The notes under the pieces: model-generated
Seen by the model: the letters and a program-made list of their open reading frames with translations, nothing else
What the model was told of the DNA's origin: nothing
Database searches by the model: none
Part shown: in pieces, positions 17,910 through 52,031 of the stretch
Layout: each line of letters begins with the position of its first letter
Numbering within the stretch: position 1 is the stretch's first letter
Translations under genes and position numbers: made by a program
NCBI RefSeq assembly: GCF_002188465.1
Contig: NZ_NINW01000046.1
Span: 1 to 64,000, forward strand
Direction of reading: 5' to 3'
Source of the DNA: Pigmentiphaga sp. NML080357
GTDB lineage: Bacteria; Pseudomonadota; Gammaproteobacteria; Burkholderiales; Burkholderiaceae_B
DNA length: 64,000 nucleotides

Positions 17910-18689
17910 TCAGGCCGTTACGTGAAAGCCCACGCGGCCGAGATTCTGCATCTCGAGCTCGACCCAGGTGCCCGCCACGAGGGCCTCGGCGGCGCTGGCG
18001 CCGCCGGCCATCACGATGGAACCCTCGGGCAGGATCTCGCCGGCCTGCGCCACCAGGCGCGCGGCCGCGACCAGCGAGCGCACGGGATGGCCCAGGATGG
18101 CGGCGGTGGTGCCGACCTGCTGGGCCTTGCCATTGCACGACATGATCAGGCCCAGGTTGGAGAAGTCGATGCTGGGCTTGTGCCAGGCGCCCAGCACCAC
18201 ACCCGACGACGAGGCGTTGTCCGCCACGACGTCTTCCAGCGAGAATTTGAAGGCCTTGTAGCGCGAATCGATGATCTCCAGCGCCGGGGCGATGGCCTCG
18301 ACGGCATCCAGGGCCTCGAGCGGCGACACCATGCCCGACAGCGGCTTGCGCAGCAGGAAGGCGATCTCGGGCTCGACGCGCGGGTGCACGCGGGTCGACA
18401 GCTTGAGCTCGCCGCCCTCGTCCACGCGCATGTCATGCGTCAGGCGGCCCCAGATCATGTCGTGCACGCCCATCTGAACCATCTTGGCACGGCTGGTGAA
18501 ACCCATCTTCATGCCGATGCGGCGATGGCCGCGGTCGATGCGGCGCTGGATCAGCATGCGCTGCACTTCATAGGCCTCGGCCAGCGTGAGCGGACGGCGC
18601 TCGACGAACTGTTCGGCGGCGCGCGGCGTGCTGGCGGCTTCGTCCAGCTCGCGGGCCACTTCGGGTAGGGACAACAGCGGACCGCTCAT
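17910..18689 (-). CDS. 2-oxo-3-hexenedioate (4-oxalocrotonate) decarboxylase
   Basis: 259 residues of the MhpD/FAH-like hydratase-decarboxylase family. It converts 2-oxo-3-hexenedioate to 2-oxopent-4-enoate in the meta-cleavage route (XylI/DmpH/NbaG role). Metal ligands are in [11 protein letters not shown] (Glu-x-Glu) with a further acidic residue in [24 protein letters not shown] and [10 protein letters not shown] fit the family. The ATG at 18689 overlaps the stop of the hydratase gene (ATGA). Decarboxylase and hydratase of this route form a physical complex in other bacteria, which fits the coupling. Confidence 0.85.
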
Positions 18690-19507
18690 GCTTGCTCCTT
18701 GGCGCCAAATACCGCGCGCACCGAGCCCAGCCCGGCTATGCGCGCTTCCAGAATTTCCTCTCCCCGCACCGCGACCATGGGGCCCAGCGCACCGCTCAGC
18801 ACCACGTCGCCGGCGCGCAGCGGATTGCCCCGCTCGGCCATCTTGCGCGCCAGCCACAGCGCGGCGTTCAACGGATGGCCCAGGCACGCTGCGCCGGCGC
18901 CGATCGACACCTGGTCGCCGTTGCGCTCCATGACCATGCCGCACAGGCGGGCGTCGAAGTCACCCAGCTTGACCGGGCGGTTGCCCAGCACGAACAGGCC
19001 CGACGAGGCATTGTCGGCAATGGTGTCGACGATGCTGATCTTCCAGTTGGCGATGCGGCTGTCGACGATCTCGATGGCCGGCACGGCATAGGCGACCGAG
19101 GAAATCAGTTCGGCCATGGTGGCCAGGGGCTGGGTCAGGTCGCGCTCCATGACGAAGGCGATCTCGGCCTCGACCTTGGGCTGGATCAGCGTCGACAGCG
19201 GCACCTCCTCGCCGTCGCACACCGACATGTCGGCGAACAGCATGCCGTAGTCGGGCTGGTCCACGCCCAGCTGCGCCTGCACCGCCTTGGAGGTCAGGCC
19301 GATCTTGCGGCCCACCAGGCGGCGGCCCTGCTGGATCCAGTGATCGGTGTTGGCCTGCTGCACCGCGTAAGCGGCGTCCAAGTCGCCGGCCGGCAATTGA
19401 TCGCGAATCGGATCGATGGCGACGCGGCTTTCATGAGCATTGCGCAAGCGCTGCGCAAGCCCGGCGATCGCCTCGGCGGCAACGCCTCCTTGTCCTATCT
19501 GCCCCAT
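18686..19507 (-). CDS. 2-oxopent-4-enoate (2-keto-4-pentenoate) hydratase
   Basis: 273 residues, paralogous to the downstream decarboxylase. It hydrates 2-oxopent-4-enoate to 4-hydroxy-2-oxovalerate (XylJ/MhpD/NbaH role). [34 protein letters not shown] and the C-terminal [14 protein letters not shown] are hallmarks. The ATG at 19507 has AGGA nearby and is better than the upstream in-frame Met at 19540. The next enzyme, 4-hydroxy-2-oxovalerate aldolase, is not in the window. The gene is directly downstream of the MarR gene and of a palindromic site. Confidence 0.87.
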
Positions 19508-19543: not shown

Positions 19544-19569
19544 TATGCCGTATACGTACGAATATACGG
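19544..19569. promoter_or_regulatory. Operator-like site 1, upstream of the hydratase operon
   Basis: TATGCCGTATACGTAC at 19544-19559, with outer arms CCGTAT / ATACGG. Fifteen of 16 bases (TATGnCGTATACGTAC) are repeated at 20255-20270 in front of the divergent dehydrogenase gene. The MarR gene lies between the two sites. Confidence 0.65.
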
Positions 19570-19601
19570 GAGAAAACGGAACTTCGGCAACGGCGGCCCG
19601 C

Positions 19602-20108
19602 TCATTGCGCCACCCCCGCCATGAGTTTCAGGCATTTGATGAACAACGCCCGGTACTCGGGCGGCAGCACCGCGATGATGGCGTCTTCCACGTCCTTGTC
19701 GCGCGGCAGCACGCGCTCCAGCACGTCCACGCCGGCCTGCGTGATCGTCACCGAATAGGCTCGCTTGTCGTCCGCCGAGCGCCGGCGCTTCAGATACCCC
19801 TTCTTCACCAGGCGGTTGATCATGTCGGCCAGCGAATTGCGGTCGAGCGCGATGTCTTCGGCCAGCTGGTTCTGGGTGGCGCCCGGATGCTTGCAGACGG
19901 TGATCAGCAGCGCCTTCTGGCGCGGCGTCAGGTCCTCGTCGTGGAAGGTCTGCATGAACAGGGCCTCGGCGCGAAAATGCGCGCGCCGCAGCAGGTGCGA
20001 CACGACGTCCGTGAGCTCGAACGCCCGCACGGCATCCGTGCAAGGCACGGTTTCCGGTTCGGGAGACGGCGCGGCGGGCGGGCGTCGCAAGGCGGAGGAT
20101 CGGGTCAT
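19602..20108 (-). CDS. MarR-family transcriptional regulator of cluster A
   Basis: 168 residues. The winged-helix core includes [41 protein letters not shown], then the wing [22 protein letters not shown]. The N-terminal 25 residues are an extension rich in Pro and Ala. It lies between two copies of the same palindromic site that front the hydratase-decarboxylase pair (same strand) and the dehydrogenase gene (opposite strand). It is therefore the likely local repressor, with an aromatic or ring-fission compound as inducer. The exact ligand is unknown. Confidence 0.9.
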
Positions 20109-20254
20109 GGTGGCGAGCCGGAGCGGACTTGAGATCTTAACTGATGTCGCGCGCCCGGCCAGCGGCGCCCTGGCGTTTCTTCGAACCGGCTATGGCTGGC
20201 ACCGAAGTTGTTATGCCCCCGGGGATGGACCGGTCGCGCGAAATTCCACTATAT

Positions 20255-20276
20255 TATGACGTATACGTACTATACC
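20255..20276. promoter_or_regulatory. Operator-like site 2, upstream of the semialdehyde dehydrogenase gene
   Basis: TATGACGTATACGTAC at 20255-20270 contains a perfect 10-bp palindrome ACGTATACGT. It matches site 1 at 19544 and sits about 25 bases before the dehydrogenase start. Confidence 0.65.
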
Positions 20277-20294
20277 TCAACGGAACCCAGCACC

Positions 20295-21752
20295 ATGTCG
20301 GTCAAATCCCTGCGCAACTTCATCGGCGGCCGCTTCGAAGACGGCATCCGCACCTTCGACAAACTCAACCCCGCCAACGGCGAACTGGTGGCGCGCGTGC
20401 ACGAAGCCAGCCGCGACCAGGTGAACGCCGCGGTGGCGGCGGCCCGCCAGGCCTTGCCGGCCTGGGCGGCGCTGCCGGTCAACCAGCGCACGGACTACCT
20501 GTACGCGCTGGCCGACGGCATCGAACGCCGCTTCGACGATTTCCTGGCGGCGGAGATCGGCGACACCGGCAAGCCCGTGGGCTGGGCCAGCCAGATCGAC
20601 ATCCCGCGCGGCGCGGCCAACTTCCGCGCCTTCGCCGAGATCGCCCGCACGCTGGACATGGAAAGCTTCATGACCGATACGCCGGACGGCCGGCAGGCGC
20701 TGAACTACGCCTACCGCAAGCCGCTGGGCGTGGTGGGCGTCATCTCGCCGTGGAACCTGCCGCTGCTGCTGTTCACCTGGAAGGTCGCGCCCGCGCTGGC
20801 CTTCGGCAACACCGTGGTGGCCAAGCCTTCCGAGGTCACGCCTTCCACCGCCACCCTGCTGGCCGAAGTGGCGGCCGAGGTCGGCCTGCCCGCCGGCGTG
20901 TTCAACGTGGTCCACGGCTTCGGCCCGAATTCGGCCGGCGAATTCATCACTACCCACCCTGACATCGACGGCATCACCTTCACCGGCGAATCGGCCACCG
21001 GCAGCACCATCATGAAGGCGGTCGCGCCGGGCGTGAAGCCGGTATCGTTCGAACTGGGCGGCAAGAACGCCGCGCTGGTGTTCGAGGACGCCGACTTCGA
21101 CGCGGCCGTCGCCGGCGTGGCCCGCTCGGTCTTCGCCAACTGCGGCCAGGTCTGCCTGTGCACCGAGCGCGTCTACGTCCAGCGGCCGATCTACGACCGC
21201 TTCGTCGCCGCCCTGAAGCTCGAAGCCGAGAAACTGGTGCTGGGCCGCCCCATGGACAGCGCCACCACCATGGGCCCGCTGGTGTCGCACGAGCACCGCG
21301 AGAAGGTGCTGTCCTACCTGCGCCTGGCGGTCGAGGAAGGCGCCACCGTGGTCACCGGCGGCGGCGTGCCGACCTTCGGCGACGAGCGCGACCAGGGCGC
21401 CTACATCCAGCCGACCATCTGGACCGGCCTGCCCGAGACCGCCCGCTGCATCAAGGAAGAGGTGTTCGGCCCGGTCTGCCACATCGCCCCCTTCGATACC
21501 GAGGAAGAAGCCATCCGGCTGGCCAACGACACCCACTACGGGCTGGCGGCGGCCGTCTGGACCACCAACCTGACCCGCGGCCATCGCGTGGCCCAGGCCA
21601 TGCAGGTGGGCCTGGCGTGGGTGAACTGCTGGTTCCTGCGCGACCTGCGCACGCCCTTCGGCGGCAGCGGCCTGTCGGGCATAGGGCGTGAAGGCGGCCG
21701 CCACTCGCTGCATTTCTATACCGAGCCGACCAACGTCTGCGTGAAGCTGTAG
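20295..21752 (+). CDS. 2-hydroxymuconic/2-aminomuconic semialdehyde dehydrogenase
   Basis: 485 residues of the NAD-dependent ALDH superfamily. Cys287 in NCGQVCLCTERVY is the catalytic nucleophile, and the general-base Glu is in FELGGKNAAL. It is closely similar to the 50.5-kb dehydrogenase (shared TERVYVQRPI, CWFLRDLRTPFGGSGLSGIG versus NSWFLRDLRTSFGGAKQSGIG). Beside a 3-hydroxyanthranilate dioxygenase, the substrate may be 2-aminomuconate 6-semialdehyde (NbaE/AmnC role), but the hydroxy analogue is equally possible. The ATG at 20295 gives the typical N-terminus; an upstream in-frame ATG at 20253 lies within the operator. Confidence 0.85.
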   Translation: MSVKSLRNFIGGRFEDGIRTFDKLNPANGELVARVHEASRDQVNAAVAAARQALPAWAALPVNQRTDYLYALADGIERRFDDFLAAEIGDTGKPVGWASQIDIPRGAANFRAFAEIARTLDMESFMTDTPDGRQALNYAYRKPLGVVGVISPWNLPLLLFTWKVAPALAFGNTVVAKPSEVTPSTATLLAEVAAEVGLPAGVFNVVHGFGPNSAGEFITTHPDIDGITFTGESATGSTIMKAVAPGVKPVSFELGGKNAALVFEDADFDAAVAGVARSVFANCGQVCLCTERVYVQRPIYDRFVAALKLEAEKLVLGRPMDSATTMGPLVSHEHREKVLSYLRLAVEEGATVVTGGGVPTFGDERDQGAYIQPTIWTGLPETARCIKEEVFGPVCHIAPFDTEEEAIRLANDTHYGLAAAVWTTNLTRGHRVAQAMQVGLAWVNCWFLRDLRTPFGGSGLSGIGREGGRHSLHFYTEPTNVCVKL

Positions 21753-21781: not shown

Positions 21782-22768
21782 ATGTCCCCTGCGGCCGCCA
21801 TGTCCAACTTCCGTCTGACTCCCAACGCGCTGGGGCACAAGCTCAAGCTGCACCAACTCCAGATCTTCGAGCGGGTGCTCGAGCGCCGGTCGCTGTCGCG
21901 CGCGGCCAATGAACTGAACCTGACGCAGCCCAGCGTCACCAAGGCCATCTACGAGCTGGAGAAGTTCGTGGGCGCGCCGCTGTTCGAGCGGTCCAACCGC
22001 GGCGTGGTCCCGACCGAGCTGGCGCATCTCCTGGGCCGGCGGGTCAAGACGCTGATGGCCGAGCTGCGCTACATGACGGACGAACTCAATGCCGCGCTGA
22101 CGGGGGAAAGCGGGCACGTCATCGTCGGCACCCTGATCGCCGCGTCGGCCAAGCTGCTGCCCGAGGCGATCTCGATGCTGATGCAGGAGCACCCGGGGAT
22201 CCGCGTCACGGTCTCCGAAGGCCCCTCGTCGCAGCTCTTCCCCGCGCTGGCCACGGGCGACCTCGACATCGTGGTGGGACGCCTGCCCGAGCGCGACATC
22301 GCGCTCGGCTATGCCTATCCGCTCACCCACCACACGCTGTACGAGGAAAAGCTGCATGCCGTCGTCGGCGCCCACCACCCGCTGGCGCGCGCGGCGCACC
22401 TGGAACTGGGCCAGTTGATGGAGCAGCCCTGGATCCTGCCTTCGGCCGAATCGCCGCTGCGCACCGCGGTGGAACAGACTTTCCACCGTACCGGGCTGGG
22501 CATTCCGCCCCGCCACATCGAATCCCTGTCGCTGCTGACCAACCTGGGCATCCTGCTGCGCGGCGAGGCCATCGCCCTCATGCCGCAGGACGCCGCCGCG
22601 CAATTCCTGGACCACGGACTGCTCAAGCGCCTGCCGCTGGCCGAATTCGGCCTGTTCGGGCGCGTGGGCTATTCGGTACGGGCGAACCGGCAACTCACTC
22701 CCGCCAGCCAGCACCTGATCGAATACCTGCATCGCATCTGCGACGCCCGGCGCGCCGGCGCCTCCTGA
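21782..22768 (+). CDS. LysR-family transcriptional regulator (GbpR-like)
   Basis: About 328 residues. HTH: LHQLQIFERVLERRSLSRAA through NLTQPSVTKAIYELEKFVGAPLFERSNRG. The C-terminal co-inducer domain follows (VIVGTLIAASAKLLPEA, DLDIVVGRLPE). The start is ambiguous: Met codons at 21761, 21782 and 21800 are in frame. A perfect hairpin encloses the 21782 ATG. Unusually for LysR genes, it is codirectional with both its upstream (dehydrogenase) and downstream (3-hydroxyanthranilate dioxygenase) neighbours. A role in cluster A is likely; the ligand is unknown. Confidence 0.9.
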   Translation: MSPAAAMSNFRLTPNALGHKLKLHQLQIFERVLERRSLSRAANELNLTQPSVTKAIYELEKFVGAPLFERSNRGVVPTELAHLLGRRVKTLMAELRYMTDELNAALTGESGHVIVGTLIAASAKLLPEAISMLMQEHPGIRVTVSEGPSSQLFPALATGDLDIVVGRLPERDIALGYAYPLTHHTLYEEKLHAVVGAHHPLARAAHLELGQLMEQPWILPSAESPLRTAVEQTFHRTGLGIPPRHIESLSLLTNLGILLRGEAIALMPQDAAAQFLDHGLLKRLPLAEFGLFGRVGYSVRANRQLTPASQHLIEYLHRICDARRAGAS

Positions 22769-22874: not shown

Positions 22875-24385
<1,511 letters not shown>

Positions 24386-50545: not shown

Positions 50546-52000
50546 TCAGAGCTTCACGCAAACGTTGCGCAGCTCGGTGTAGAACTCCAGCGAATGTACC
50601 CCGCCCTCGCGCCCGATGCCGGATTGCTTGGCACCGCCGAACGAAGTGCGCAGGTCGCGCAGGAACCAGGAATTGACCCAGCAGATGCCCACGTTCAGGG
50701 CCTTGCCCAGGCGGTGCGCGGTGCCGACGTTCTGCGTCCAGACCGTGGCGGCCAGGCCGTAGGGTGTGGCATTGGCCAGGTTGATGACCTCTTCCTCGGT
50801 GTCGAAGGGCTGGATGTGGCAGCAGGGGCCGAAGATTTCCTCGCGCACGACGGCGGCGGTTTCGGGCAGGCCGGTCCAGATGGTCGGCTGCACCCAGGCG
50901 CCCTCGGCCATCTTGCCGGGCATGTCGGGCACGCCGCCGCCGGTCACGATGGTGGCGCCCTCCTCGCGCGCCTTGGCGTAGTAGCCCAGCACCTTCTCGC
51001 GGTGGACCTGCGAGACCAGCGGACCGAAATTGGTGGCGTGATCGTTCGGGTCGCCCAGCTTGAACGACTCGGCCTTGGCCTTCAGCGCGGCCACGAACTT
51101 CTCGAAGATCGGGCGCTGCACGTAGACGCGCTCCGTGCCCAGGCAGACCTGGCCGCTGTTCTCGAAGGCGGCACGGGCGATGCCGGCCACGGCCTTGTCG
51201 AAGTCGGCGTCGGCGAACACGATGCCGGGGTTCTTGCCCCCCAGTTCGAAGGAAACCGGGCGCACGCCGTTGGCGGCGGCCTTCATGATGACCTCGCCGG
51301 TACGGGTTTCACCGGTGAAAGTGATGCCATCGACGTCGGGATGCGAGGTCAGGAATTCGCCAGCGGAATCCGGGCCGAAGCCATGCACGACGTTGTAGAC
51401 GCCCGGCGGCACGCCGACCTCATTCATCACTTCGCCCAGCAGCGTGGCCGTGGCGGGGGTTTCTTCCGAGGGCTTGACCACCACGGTGTTGCCGCAGGCC
51501 AGTGCCGGCCCCACCTTCCAGGTCATCAGCAGCAGCGGCAGGTTCCACGGGCAGACCACGCCGATCACGCCGCGCGGCACGCGCACCGAGTAGTTGAGCG
51601 CGAAGCCATTGTCGGGCGTTTCCATCTCGAAGGTTTCGCCAGGCACGTTGCGGATCAGGTCGGCGAACACCTTGAAGTTGGCGGCGCCGCGGGGAATGTC
51701 CACGTGGCTGGCCAGCACGTGGGGCTTGCCGGTGTCGGCCATCTCGGCCGCCAGGAAATCGTCGAAGCGGCGGTTGATGCCATCGGCGATGGCATGCAGC
51801 ATCTCGACGCGCTGCTGCACCTTCATCGTGGCCCAGGGGCCGGACAAGGCGGCGCGCGCGGCCTTCACGGCGGCATCCACCTCGGCGCGGCCGGCCTCGT
51901 AGACCGGCCCGATCAGGCTGTTGTCGACCGGATTGCGGTTCTCGAAGGTCTTGCCGGTGGCGACCCACTGGCCGTTGATGAAGTTCTTGAACTCGTTCAT
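50546..52000 (-). CDS. 2-hydroxymuconic semialdehyde dehydrogenase
   Basis: 484 residues of the ALDH superfamily. Catalytic Cys286 in NSGQVCLGTERVY and Glu in FELGGKNPGIVF are present. The ATG at 52000 has GGAGAGG at good spacing. Placed between a tautomerase and an extradiol dioxygenase, it fits the XylG/DmpC role, oxidising 2-hydroxymuconic semialdehyde to 2-hydroxymuconate. It is a close paralog of the 20.3-kb enzyme. Confidence 0.9.
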   Translation of the reverse strand: MNEFKNFINGQWVATGKTFENRNPVDNSLIGPVYEAGRAEVDAAVKAARAALSGPWATMKVQQRVEMLHAIADGINRRFDDFLAAEMADTGKPHVLASHVDIPRGAANFKVFADLIRNVPGETFEMETPDNGFALNYSVRVPRGVIGVVCPWNLPLLLMTWKVGPALACGNTVVVKPSEETPATATLLGEVMNEVGVPPGVYNVVHGFGPDSAGEFLTSHPDVDGITFTGETRTGEVIMKAAANGVRPVSFELGGKNPGIVFADADFDKAVAGIARAAFENSGQVCLGTERVYVQRPIFEKFVAALKAKAESFKLGDPNDHATNFGPLVSQVHREKVLGYYAKAREEGATIVTGGGVPDMPGKMAEGAWVQPTIWTGLPETAAVVREEIFGPCCHIQPFDTEEEVINLANATPYGLAATVWTQNVGTAHRLGKALNVGICWVNSWFLRDLRTSFGGAKQSGIGREGGVHSLEFYTELRNVCVKL

Positions 52001-52031
52001 GAATGCCTCTCCGTTCAATGCGGGGGATGAT

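Follow-up and report, generated by a model that had tools for sequence, protein, structure and literature searches.

The window analyzed here, a stretch of 64,000 nucleotides from Pigmentiphaga sp. NML080357 (contig NZ_NINW01000046.1), hosts a gene cluster for the degradation of amino-aromatic compounds, arranged in two arms around a gene for a MarR-type regulator (marR). The genes, predicted promoters and putative operators of this cluster are the following.

17910-18689, minus strand: 4-oxalocrotonate (2-oxo-3-hexenedioate) decarboxylase-type gene, amnE-like, second gene of the left arm (TIGR03218, PF01557)
18686-19507, minus strand: 2-keto-4-pentenoate hydratase-type gene, amnF-like, first gene of the left arm (NF008461, PF01557)
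19544-19559, no strand: putative operator site 1 (exact pattern match; present in 9 of 9 aligned genus sequences)
19561-19590, minus strand: predicted sigma-70 promoter of the hydratase-decarboxylase arm, TTGCCG-18-TATATT (promoter scan)
19602-20108, minus strand: marR, predicted AmnR-type regulator of 168 amino acids (PF12802 and PF01047, orthologues, tree)
20226-20255, plus strand: predicted sigma-70 promoter of the dehydrogenase arm, TGGACC-18-TATATT (promoter scan)
20253-20280, minus strand: predicted promoter towards marR, TTGAGG-16-CATAAT (promoter scan)
20255-20272, no strand: putative operator site 2, dyad TATGACGTATACGTACTA (pattern match; present in relatives, flipped in loci L015 and L020)
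20295-21752, plus strand: 2-hydroxy/2-aminomuconic 6-semialdehyde dehydrogenase gene, amnC-like, first gene of the right arm (TIGR03216)
21800-22768, plus strand: LysR-type regulator gene (PF00126 and PF03466)
22956-23492, plus strand: 3-hydroxyanthranilate 3,4-dioxygenase gene (NF009763, TIGR03037)
23489-24385, plus strand: metallo-beta-lactamase-fold hydrolase gene (PF00753)

The two left-arm enzymes both belong to the fumarylacetoacetate hydrolase superfamily. The hydratase-type gene falls just under the cut-off of its profile (NF008461, 347.9 bits, cut-off 350), and the decarboxylase-type gene under the equivalog cut-off of its own (TIGR03218, 221.4 bits, cut-off 350.55). On the right, the dehydrogenase scores over the cut-off (TIGR03216, 843.5 bits, cut-off 693.25) and is possibly co-transcribed with the LysR gene behind it. 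The 3-hydroxyanthranilate 3,4-dioxygenase, an enzyme that marks 3-hydroxyanthranilate degradation clusters, is present with scores over both cut-offs (NF009763, 284.3 bits, cut-off 220; TIGR03037, 263.8 bits, cut-off 145.95). ACMSD and 2-aminomuconate deaminase are not in the window cluster, and the best matches of both lie at positions 21033-22498 of contig C28 of the same genome (G000). The hydrolase gene overlaps the dioxygenase gene by 4 bases, and its place is occupied by ACMSD in loci L032-L034. A second dehydrogenase of the same type lies in the window at 50546-52018; it is 65% identical to the amnC-like one and has counterparts in the other genus genomes with the pathway.

By scanning the window with the 16-base pattern TATGnCGTATACGTAC, we found it with no mismatch at 19544-19559, where it reads TATGCCGTATACGTAC, and at 20255-20270, where it reads TATGACGTATACGTAC. 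Site 1 falls in the gap that separates the stop of marR (19602) from the start of the hydratase gene (19507), and site 2 in the gap from the start of marR (20108) to that of the dehydrogenase gene (20295). The initial annotation had described twin sites that flank the MarR gene in front of both arms, and both the coordinates and the zero-mismatch matches bear this out. Even when up to three mismatches are allowed, the two sites are the only matches in the window, against an expectation of 0.24 (100 shuffles, 2 of which reached two matches). No copy of the pattern was found near the second dehydrogenase in the window scan.

We extended the scan to the whole of G000 (genus Pigmentiphaga, 5,734,860 bases or 5.73 Mb, 59 contigs), which contains the window. 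The pattern occurs there twice with no mismatch, never with one, three times with two and 46 times with three. The initial annotation had named many random copies in the genome as evidence against the operators; at zero to one mismatch they did not appear. With up to three mismatches, reversed controls outnumber both TATGnCGTATACGTAC (76 versus 51 for the pattern read forwards) and its palindromic form TANNACGTATACGTNNTA (81 versus 21 places), and the loose matches are therefore background. When the palindromic form is limited to two mismatches, only three places remain, namely site 2 (none), site 1 (two) and a place near a MarR paralogue on contig C34 (two). The case rests on two exact 16-base matches and on their positions. 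A chance or non-regulatory repeat could draw on the self-complementary core of the sites and on the plentiful loose matches in the genome, which are however no more frequent than in the reversed control. This explanation is practically negligible, given the low expectation in the window, the lack of a third genome copy within one mismatch and the conservation across genera beside the same regulator that we report below.

The promoter scan returned three sigma-70-like sites, as compared to 0.3 in shuffles. Each arm has one of them, and the third is directed towards marR. All three overlap or abut an operator; their -35 boxes are poor. In both arms of the window, the TATATT of the -10 box ends 3 bp before the operator core, ACGTATACGT (TATATT-n3-core), so that a protein bound there would sit over the predicted start. 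The placement of an operator over the start site is the usual layout for a start-blocking repressor. In addition, the core of site 2 falls in the spacer of the predicted marR promoter, which suggests that marR probably limits its own expression.

To follow the sites within the genus, we compared seven relatives, all Pigmentiphaga, two of which were assigned to the genus by kinship. Loci that repeat others were counted once (L017, L018 and L019 repeat L009, L011 and L015; L021-L026 and L081-L084 repeat longer loci). Both sites are present in all eight other genus loci examined, corresponding to 7 of 7 relatives plus L020. Two loci with a 72% identical regulator, L015 and L020, carry site 2 in reverse. 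This suggests that its orientation is immaterial, as expected of a symmetric operator. In an alignment of the marR-hydratase region from nine genus sequences, all nine agree in 25 of the 27 columns of the stretch around site 1, TATATT among them, and in just two columns elsewhere. TATATT itself is invariant at site 1 (9 of 9), while at site 2 only five of the nine sequences have it and the other four have an A+T-rich variant.

This conservation bears on the possibility that MarR controls only site 2, and hence itself and the dehydrogenase, with site 1 being weaker or residual and the left arm expressed mainly by read-through from marR. Such a layout would account for the two site 1 positions at which the full dyad is broken (TATGCCGTATACGTACGA), and for L032-L034, where the sole core near marR lies before the dehydrogenase. 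It would leave the near invariance of site 1 and its TATATT, in an alignment with two other invariant columns, without a reason, and we regard it as unlikely.

At up to one mismatch, the dyad was detected in 10 of 11 genus genomes, and in each of these ten it precedes the dehydrogenase frame by 14-48 bp. G155, one of the genus genomes with a match to site 2, comes without a longer locus and stands outside the site 1 counts. In the remaining genome, G116, no dyad was found at this threshold, and the regulator, the dehydrogenase and the dioxygenase are absent as well at the thresholds used. Since the reversed control also matches 5 of the 11 genus genomes, the number of dyads alone means little; outside the genus, the dyad occurs in 3 of 50 genomes and the reversed control in 19 of 50. 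The evidence lies in the position of the site and not in its count.

We then characterized the regulator. The marR product scores above the gathering score of two MarR family profiles (PF12802, 46.0 bits versus 27; PF01047, 44.6 bits versus 24.6), and reaches no NCBIfam cut-off in the profile search. Identity as HpaR (38.7 bits), BilQ (50.5 bits) or Saro_0803 type (71.2 bits) was rejected, as the NCBIfam equivalog cut-offs are 121.2, 125 and 200, respectively. In a tree, the regulators of the window, of the 3-hydroxyanthranilate type and of the amn type form one group of 22, with four paralogues outside; its support of 94/93 is just under the level of 95 that the tool stars. The tree is midpoint-rooted, does not resolve several inner forks, and was built without L030 (incomplete frame) and without AmnR of LB400. 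As judged from these comparisons, the window regulator groups with those of 2-aminophenol clusters apart from the paralogues, and is predicted to be of AmnR type.

The putative recognition helix supplies further detail. D89, R90, N91, A94 and M96 are invariant in all 22 orthologues, and position 90 is L, V, A or S in the four paralogues and R in both outgroup proteins. The best solved-structure match by sequence is PcaV of Streptomyces coelicolor (4fht, 4g9y; E = 6e-12 only), whose ligand, protocatechuate, belongs to another pathway. His38 and Arg41, also invariant in 22 of 22, align with H12 and R15, two of the PcaV ligand contacts named in the accessible part of PMC6882365; this assignment assumes that the structure chain is numbered 3 ahead of that paper, which fits the five N-terminal residues listed there. 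At the places of PcaV H21 and Y38, the alignment, read by hand, has Glu48 and Lys65, each invariant in the 22 orthologues; Glu48 is also found in the four paralogues, and Lys65 is not. Glu48 might hold the amino group of the ligand.

A sister site accompanies MarR paralogues that are approximately 40-47% identical to the window regulator (L038, L039 and L040). In L038 it reads TTTAATACGAATACGTA (L038:6751-6768, corresponding to G000:C34:225750-225767) and lies 43 bp behind the paralogue gene, and in L039 and L040 it reads TTTAATACGTATTCGTA (L039:1503-1512 and L040:2912-2921), approximately 4.8 kb from the paralogue gene. The cores of the two are reverse complements of each other, and the site is absent in L041. 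Residue 90 in these three paralogues is L, V and A, as opposed to R in the orthologues, a difference suggesting that this residue may have changed in step with a base of the operator.

Genomes with a match to the regulator are uncommon, amounting to 13 of 151 in the family at E 1e-20 or better and to 5 of 399 in the order at E 1e-30 or better. Weaker family matches (L027-L031, 38-46% identical) were treated as paralogues. A MarR match was found in 66 plasmid records; among these, only H1-H3 were counted as orthologues (49-51% identity), H4 and H8 (L116 and L117) served as the outgroup and the others were left unused. Altogether, orthologues of marR are 49-95% identical and lie near the same enzyme types. 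In the 13 loci outside the genus the regulators are 49-65% identical, and a relative of the dehydrogenase is found in 12 of the 13 fetched stretches, L085 being the exception.

We searched these loci for the core ACGTATACGT with up to one mismatch, and defined as near marR the zone from 450 bp upstream to 150 bp downstream of its frame. A core lies near marR in 18 of the 22 orthologous loci, the window included. Overall, the 25,715 bases near marR contain 29 cores, and the remaining 240,755 bases contain four. Judging by position, two of these four cores could be genuine sites, one in L079 and the other in L080. In L080, a core lies 488 bp from the marR frame and hence outside the counted zone. 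Outside the core, distinct sites share a T at -8 (23 of 24) and a T at +8 (20 of 24), while the constancy inside it is partly due to selection, as sites were picked by their core. Operator-like cores also occur on the far side of marR at L079:9740-9749 and L080:11184-11193, the former approximately 570 bp before a methyl-accepting chemotaxis gene that is possibly, but not necessarily, part of the regulon.

The genes around these cores differ between loci. In L032-L034 the order is marR, site, dehydrogenase, 2-aminomuconate deaminase, LysR, 3-hydroxyanthranilate dioxygenase and ACMSD. In L035, L036, L078 and L079 it is marR, site, amnJ, amnB, amnA and dehydrogenase, that is, the 2-aminophenol pathway. 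L085, L087 and L088 come from one genus and have regulators 58-62% identical. In these loci marR stands between the hydratase and amnBA, with the dehydrogenase present in two of the three, much like the layout of the window. No core within one mismatch was found in these three loci, which contain only weak candidates at three mismatches. In L087, a near-palindrome, GCCGTGTACGGC, precedes the dehydrogenase and is perhaps a drifted operator.

The same loci allow us to weigh the LysR product as the main switch of the right arm, in which case the palindromes would serve another protein. In favour of such a role, the window has a LysR gene behind the dehydrogenase, and L032-L034 have one after the gene for the deaminase. 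The core, however, goes with marR: L035, L036, L037, L078, L079, L080 and L086 have a core near marR and lack a close orthologue of LysR, no match in the fetched stretch exceeding 27% identity. We therefore consider a leading role of LysR very unlikely.

The initial annotation had proposed that a single regulator controls both arms and thereby switches the pieces of the route together. The first part is favoured by the uniqueness of the sites, the link across genera, the promoter overlap and the match to a published operator. The annotation had not recognized the regulator as one of a described type. The predicted regulon falls short of the complete route. The deaminase and ACMSD are encoded on C28 and the aldolase on C1 of G000, and no dyad within two mismatches was found at the ACMSD-deaminase genes (C28), at an amnBA pair (C4) or at the aldolase gene (C1). 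This pattern suggests that marR is a local switch of the lower-pathway module rather than of the whole route. A core on C28, ACGTATTCGT (one mismatch), lies approximately 2.7 kb from the ACMSD gene and was not taken as an operator.

The set on C4 (G000:C4:70000-84000, L090:2924-7493) comprises a second MarR gene, a sulfatase, the amnBA-like pair (two LigB-type dioxygenase subunits, 57-78% identical) and a 2-aminomuconate deaminase. The 14 kb fetched around it contain no match to the dehydrogenase, the hydratase or the decarboxylase, and no core within one mismatch. This set may drain into the cluster of the window. We also considered kynurenine as a source of 3-hydroxyanthranilate in the strain and rejected it, as no kynureninase over the cut-off was detected in G000 or G073; G043 and G116 have one.

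Taken together, the two sites, their uniqueness at zero to one mismatch, their conservation, their link to the regulator and their overlap with promoter-like sequences are best explained by an AmnR-type repressor that acts at two dyads and controls both arms, a reading to which we assign a probability of approximately 0.85. From these observations we infer binding, repression, autoregulation and a ligand, in the following way. A dimer of the MarR protein would occupy the dyad TA-n2-ACGTATACGT-n2-TA at each of the two sites. As the core lies 3 bp downstream of TATATT, at the presumed transcription start, the bound protein would block the hydratase-decarboxylase arm on the left from site 1 and the dehydrogenase arm on the right from site 2. 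The block of the right arm would perhaps extend through the LysR and 3-hydroxyanthranilate dioxygenase genes. An amino-aromatic compound or a ring-cleavage product would free the repressor and turn both arms on together; 3-hydroxyanthranilate, a 2-aminomuconate compound and 2-aminophenol are the candidate ligands. Other modes of action of MarR proteins include activation and the sensing of oxidants.

The regulator-operator pair may have been kept while the ring-opening enzyme was exchanged, being a 2-aminophenol dioxygenase in some lineages and a 3-hydroxyanthranilate dioxygenase in others. Hence the regulator may sense something that both routes share. The signal could be the o-aminophenol group; a bolder candidate is a 2-aminomuconate intermediate. 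The Pigmentiphaga version might then guard a common lower-pathway hub, which would serve separate upper routes encoded on other contigs. We put this forward tentatively, at somewhat less than even odds. No new kind of regulation is opened by these results, and the circuit is a credible variation on a known theme. They back a published prediction of AmnR and its site through comparison across genera and extend it to 3-hydroxyanthranilate clusters. Two short sites and one small protein also make a potential sensor for amino-aromatic compounds.

The type of regulator and the site were already known as predictions. According to the accessible text of Chirino et al. 2013 (PMC3790839), AmnR is a MarR-type protein proposed to act on TAGTACGTATACGTTTCA as repressor of the amn operon. 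The same study describes divergent promoters in the region from amnR to amnJ, and a consensus, TAG(G/T)ACGTATACGTACTA, that five other 2-aminophenol degraders share upstream of amnJ. The response of amnB to 2-aminophenol, an induction, was measured there, and repression by AmnR was proposed. Among the literature matches listed, we found no experimental proof of AmnR and its site. A full-text search for ACGTATACGT returned, among the matches listed, only PMC3790839 as on the subject by title. No MarR regulator of 3-hydroxyanthranilate genes was found among the matches listed, as judged by title or the start of the abstract, in a search whose scope leaves most subscription journals outside.

As far as that text describes it, the amnRJBACDFEHG cluster of Burkholderia xenovorans LB400 and relatives resembles the window cluster in having a MarR-type gene divergent from the enzyme genes, and a dehydrogenase, a hydratase and a decarboxylase of the same types. 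Sequences close to TAG(G/T)ACGTATACGTACTA precede the enzyme genes of the window too, site 2 fitting 17 and site 1 15 of the 18 positions by eye. The two differ in that LB400 has one proposed site and one operon, whereas the window has two sites around the regulator and two arms, and in that the 3-hydroxyanthranilate dioxygenase gene adjoins the arms of the window where LB400 has amnBA. As the window cluster has no amnBA (2-aminophenol 1,6-dioxygenase) next to its regulator, we filed the latter as a variant and not as the AmnR of an amn operon.

In the cnb cluster of Comamonas testosteroni CNB-1 (plasmid pCNB, NC_010935, L078), the product of the MarR gene is 49% identical. An exact ACGTATACGT precedes the enzyme genes, and a second core with one mismatch lies between it and marR, that is, on the same side of marR, whereas the second site of the window is on the far side. 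Unlike the window, this cluster is annotated with a 2-aminophenol 1,6-dioxygenase.

Comparable known systems also include the nba-type 3-hydroxyanthranilate clusters, and the onb route of Cupriavidus ST-14 reportedly runs through 3-hydroxyanthranilate. The onb cluster, for degradation of 2-nitrobenzoate, has enzyme genes and a putative regulator gene, onbR1; the accessible part of PMC5817917 describes its genes as transcribed as one unit, with the promoter-operator not identified. In the genome of the window, unlike in the onb cluster, ACMSD and the deaminase are encoded on another contig. With respect to these systems, what is new is the AmnR-type pair in 3-hydroxyanthranilate clusters, the split arrangement with two operators and the conservation over 22 loci, in a setting that is also new: a lower-pathway module in two arms around its regulator, beside a 3-hydroxyanthranilate dioxygenase.
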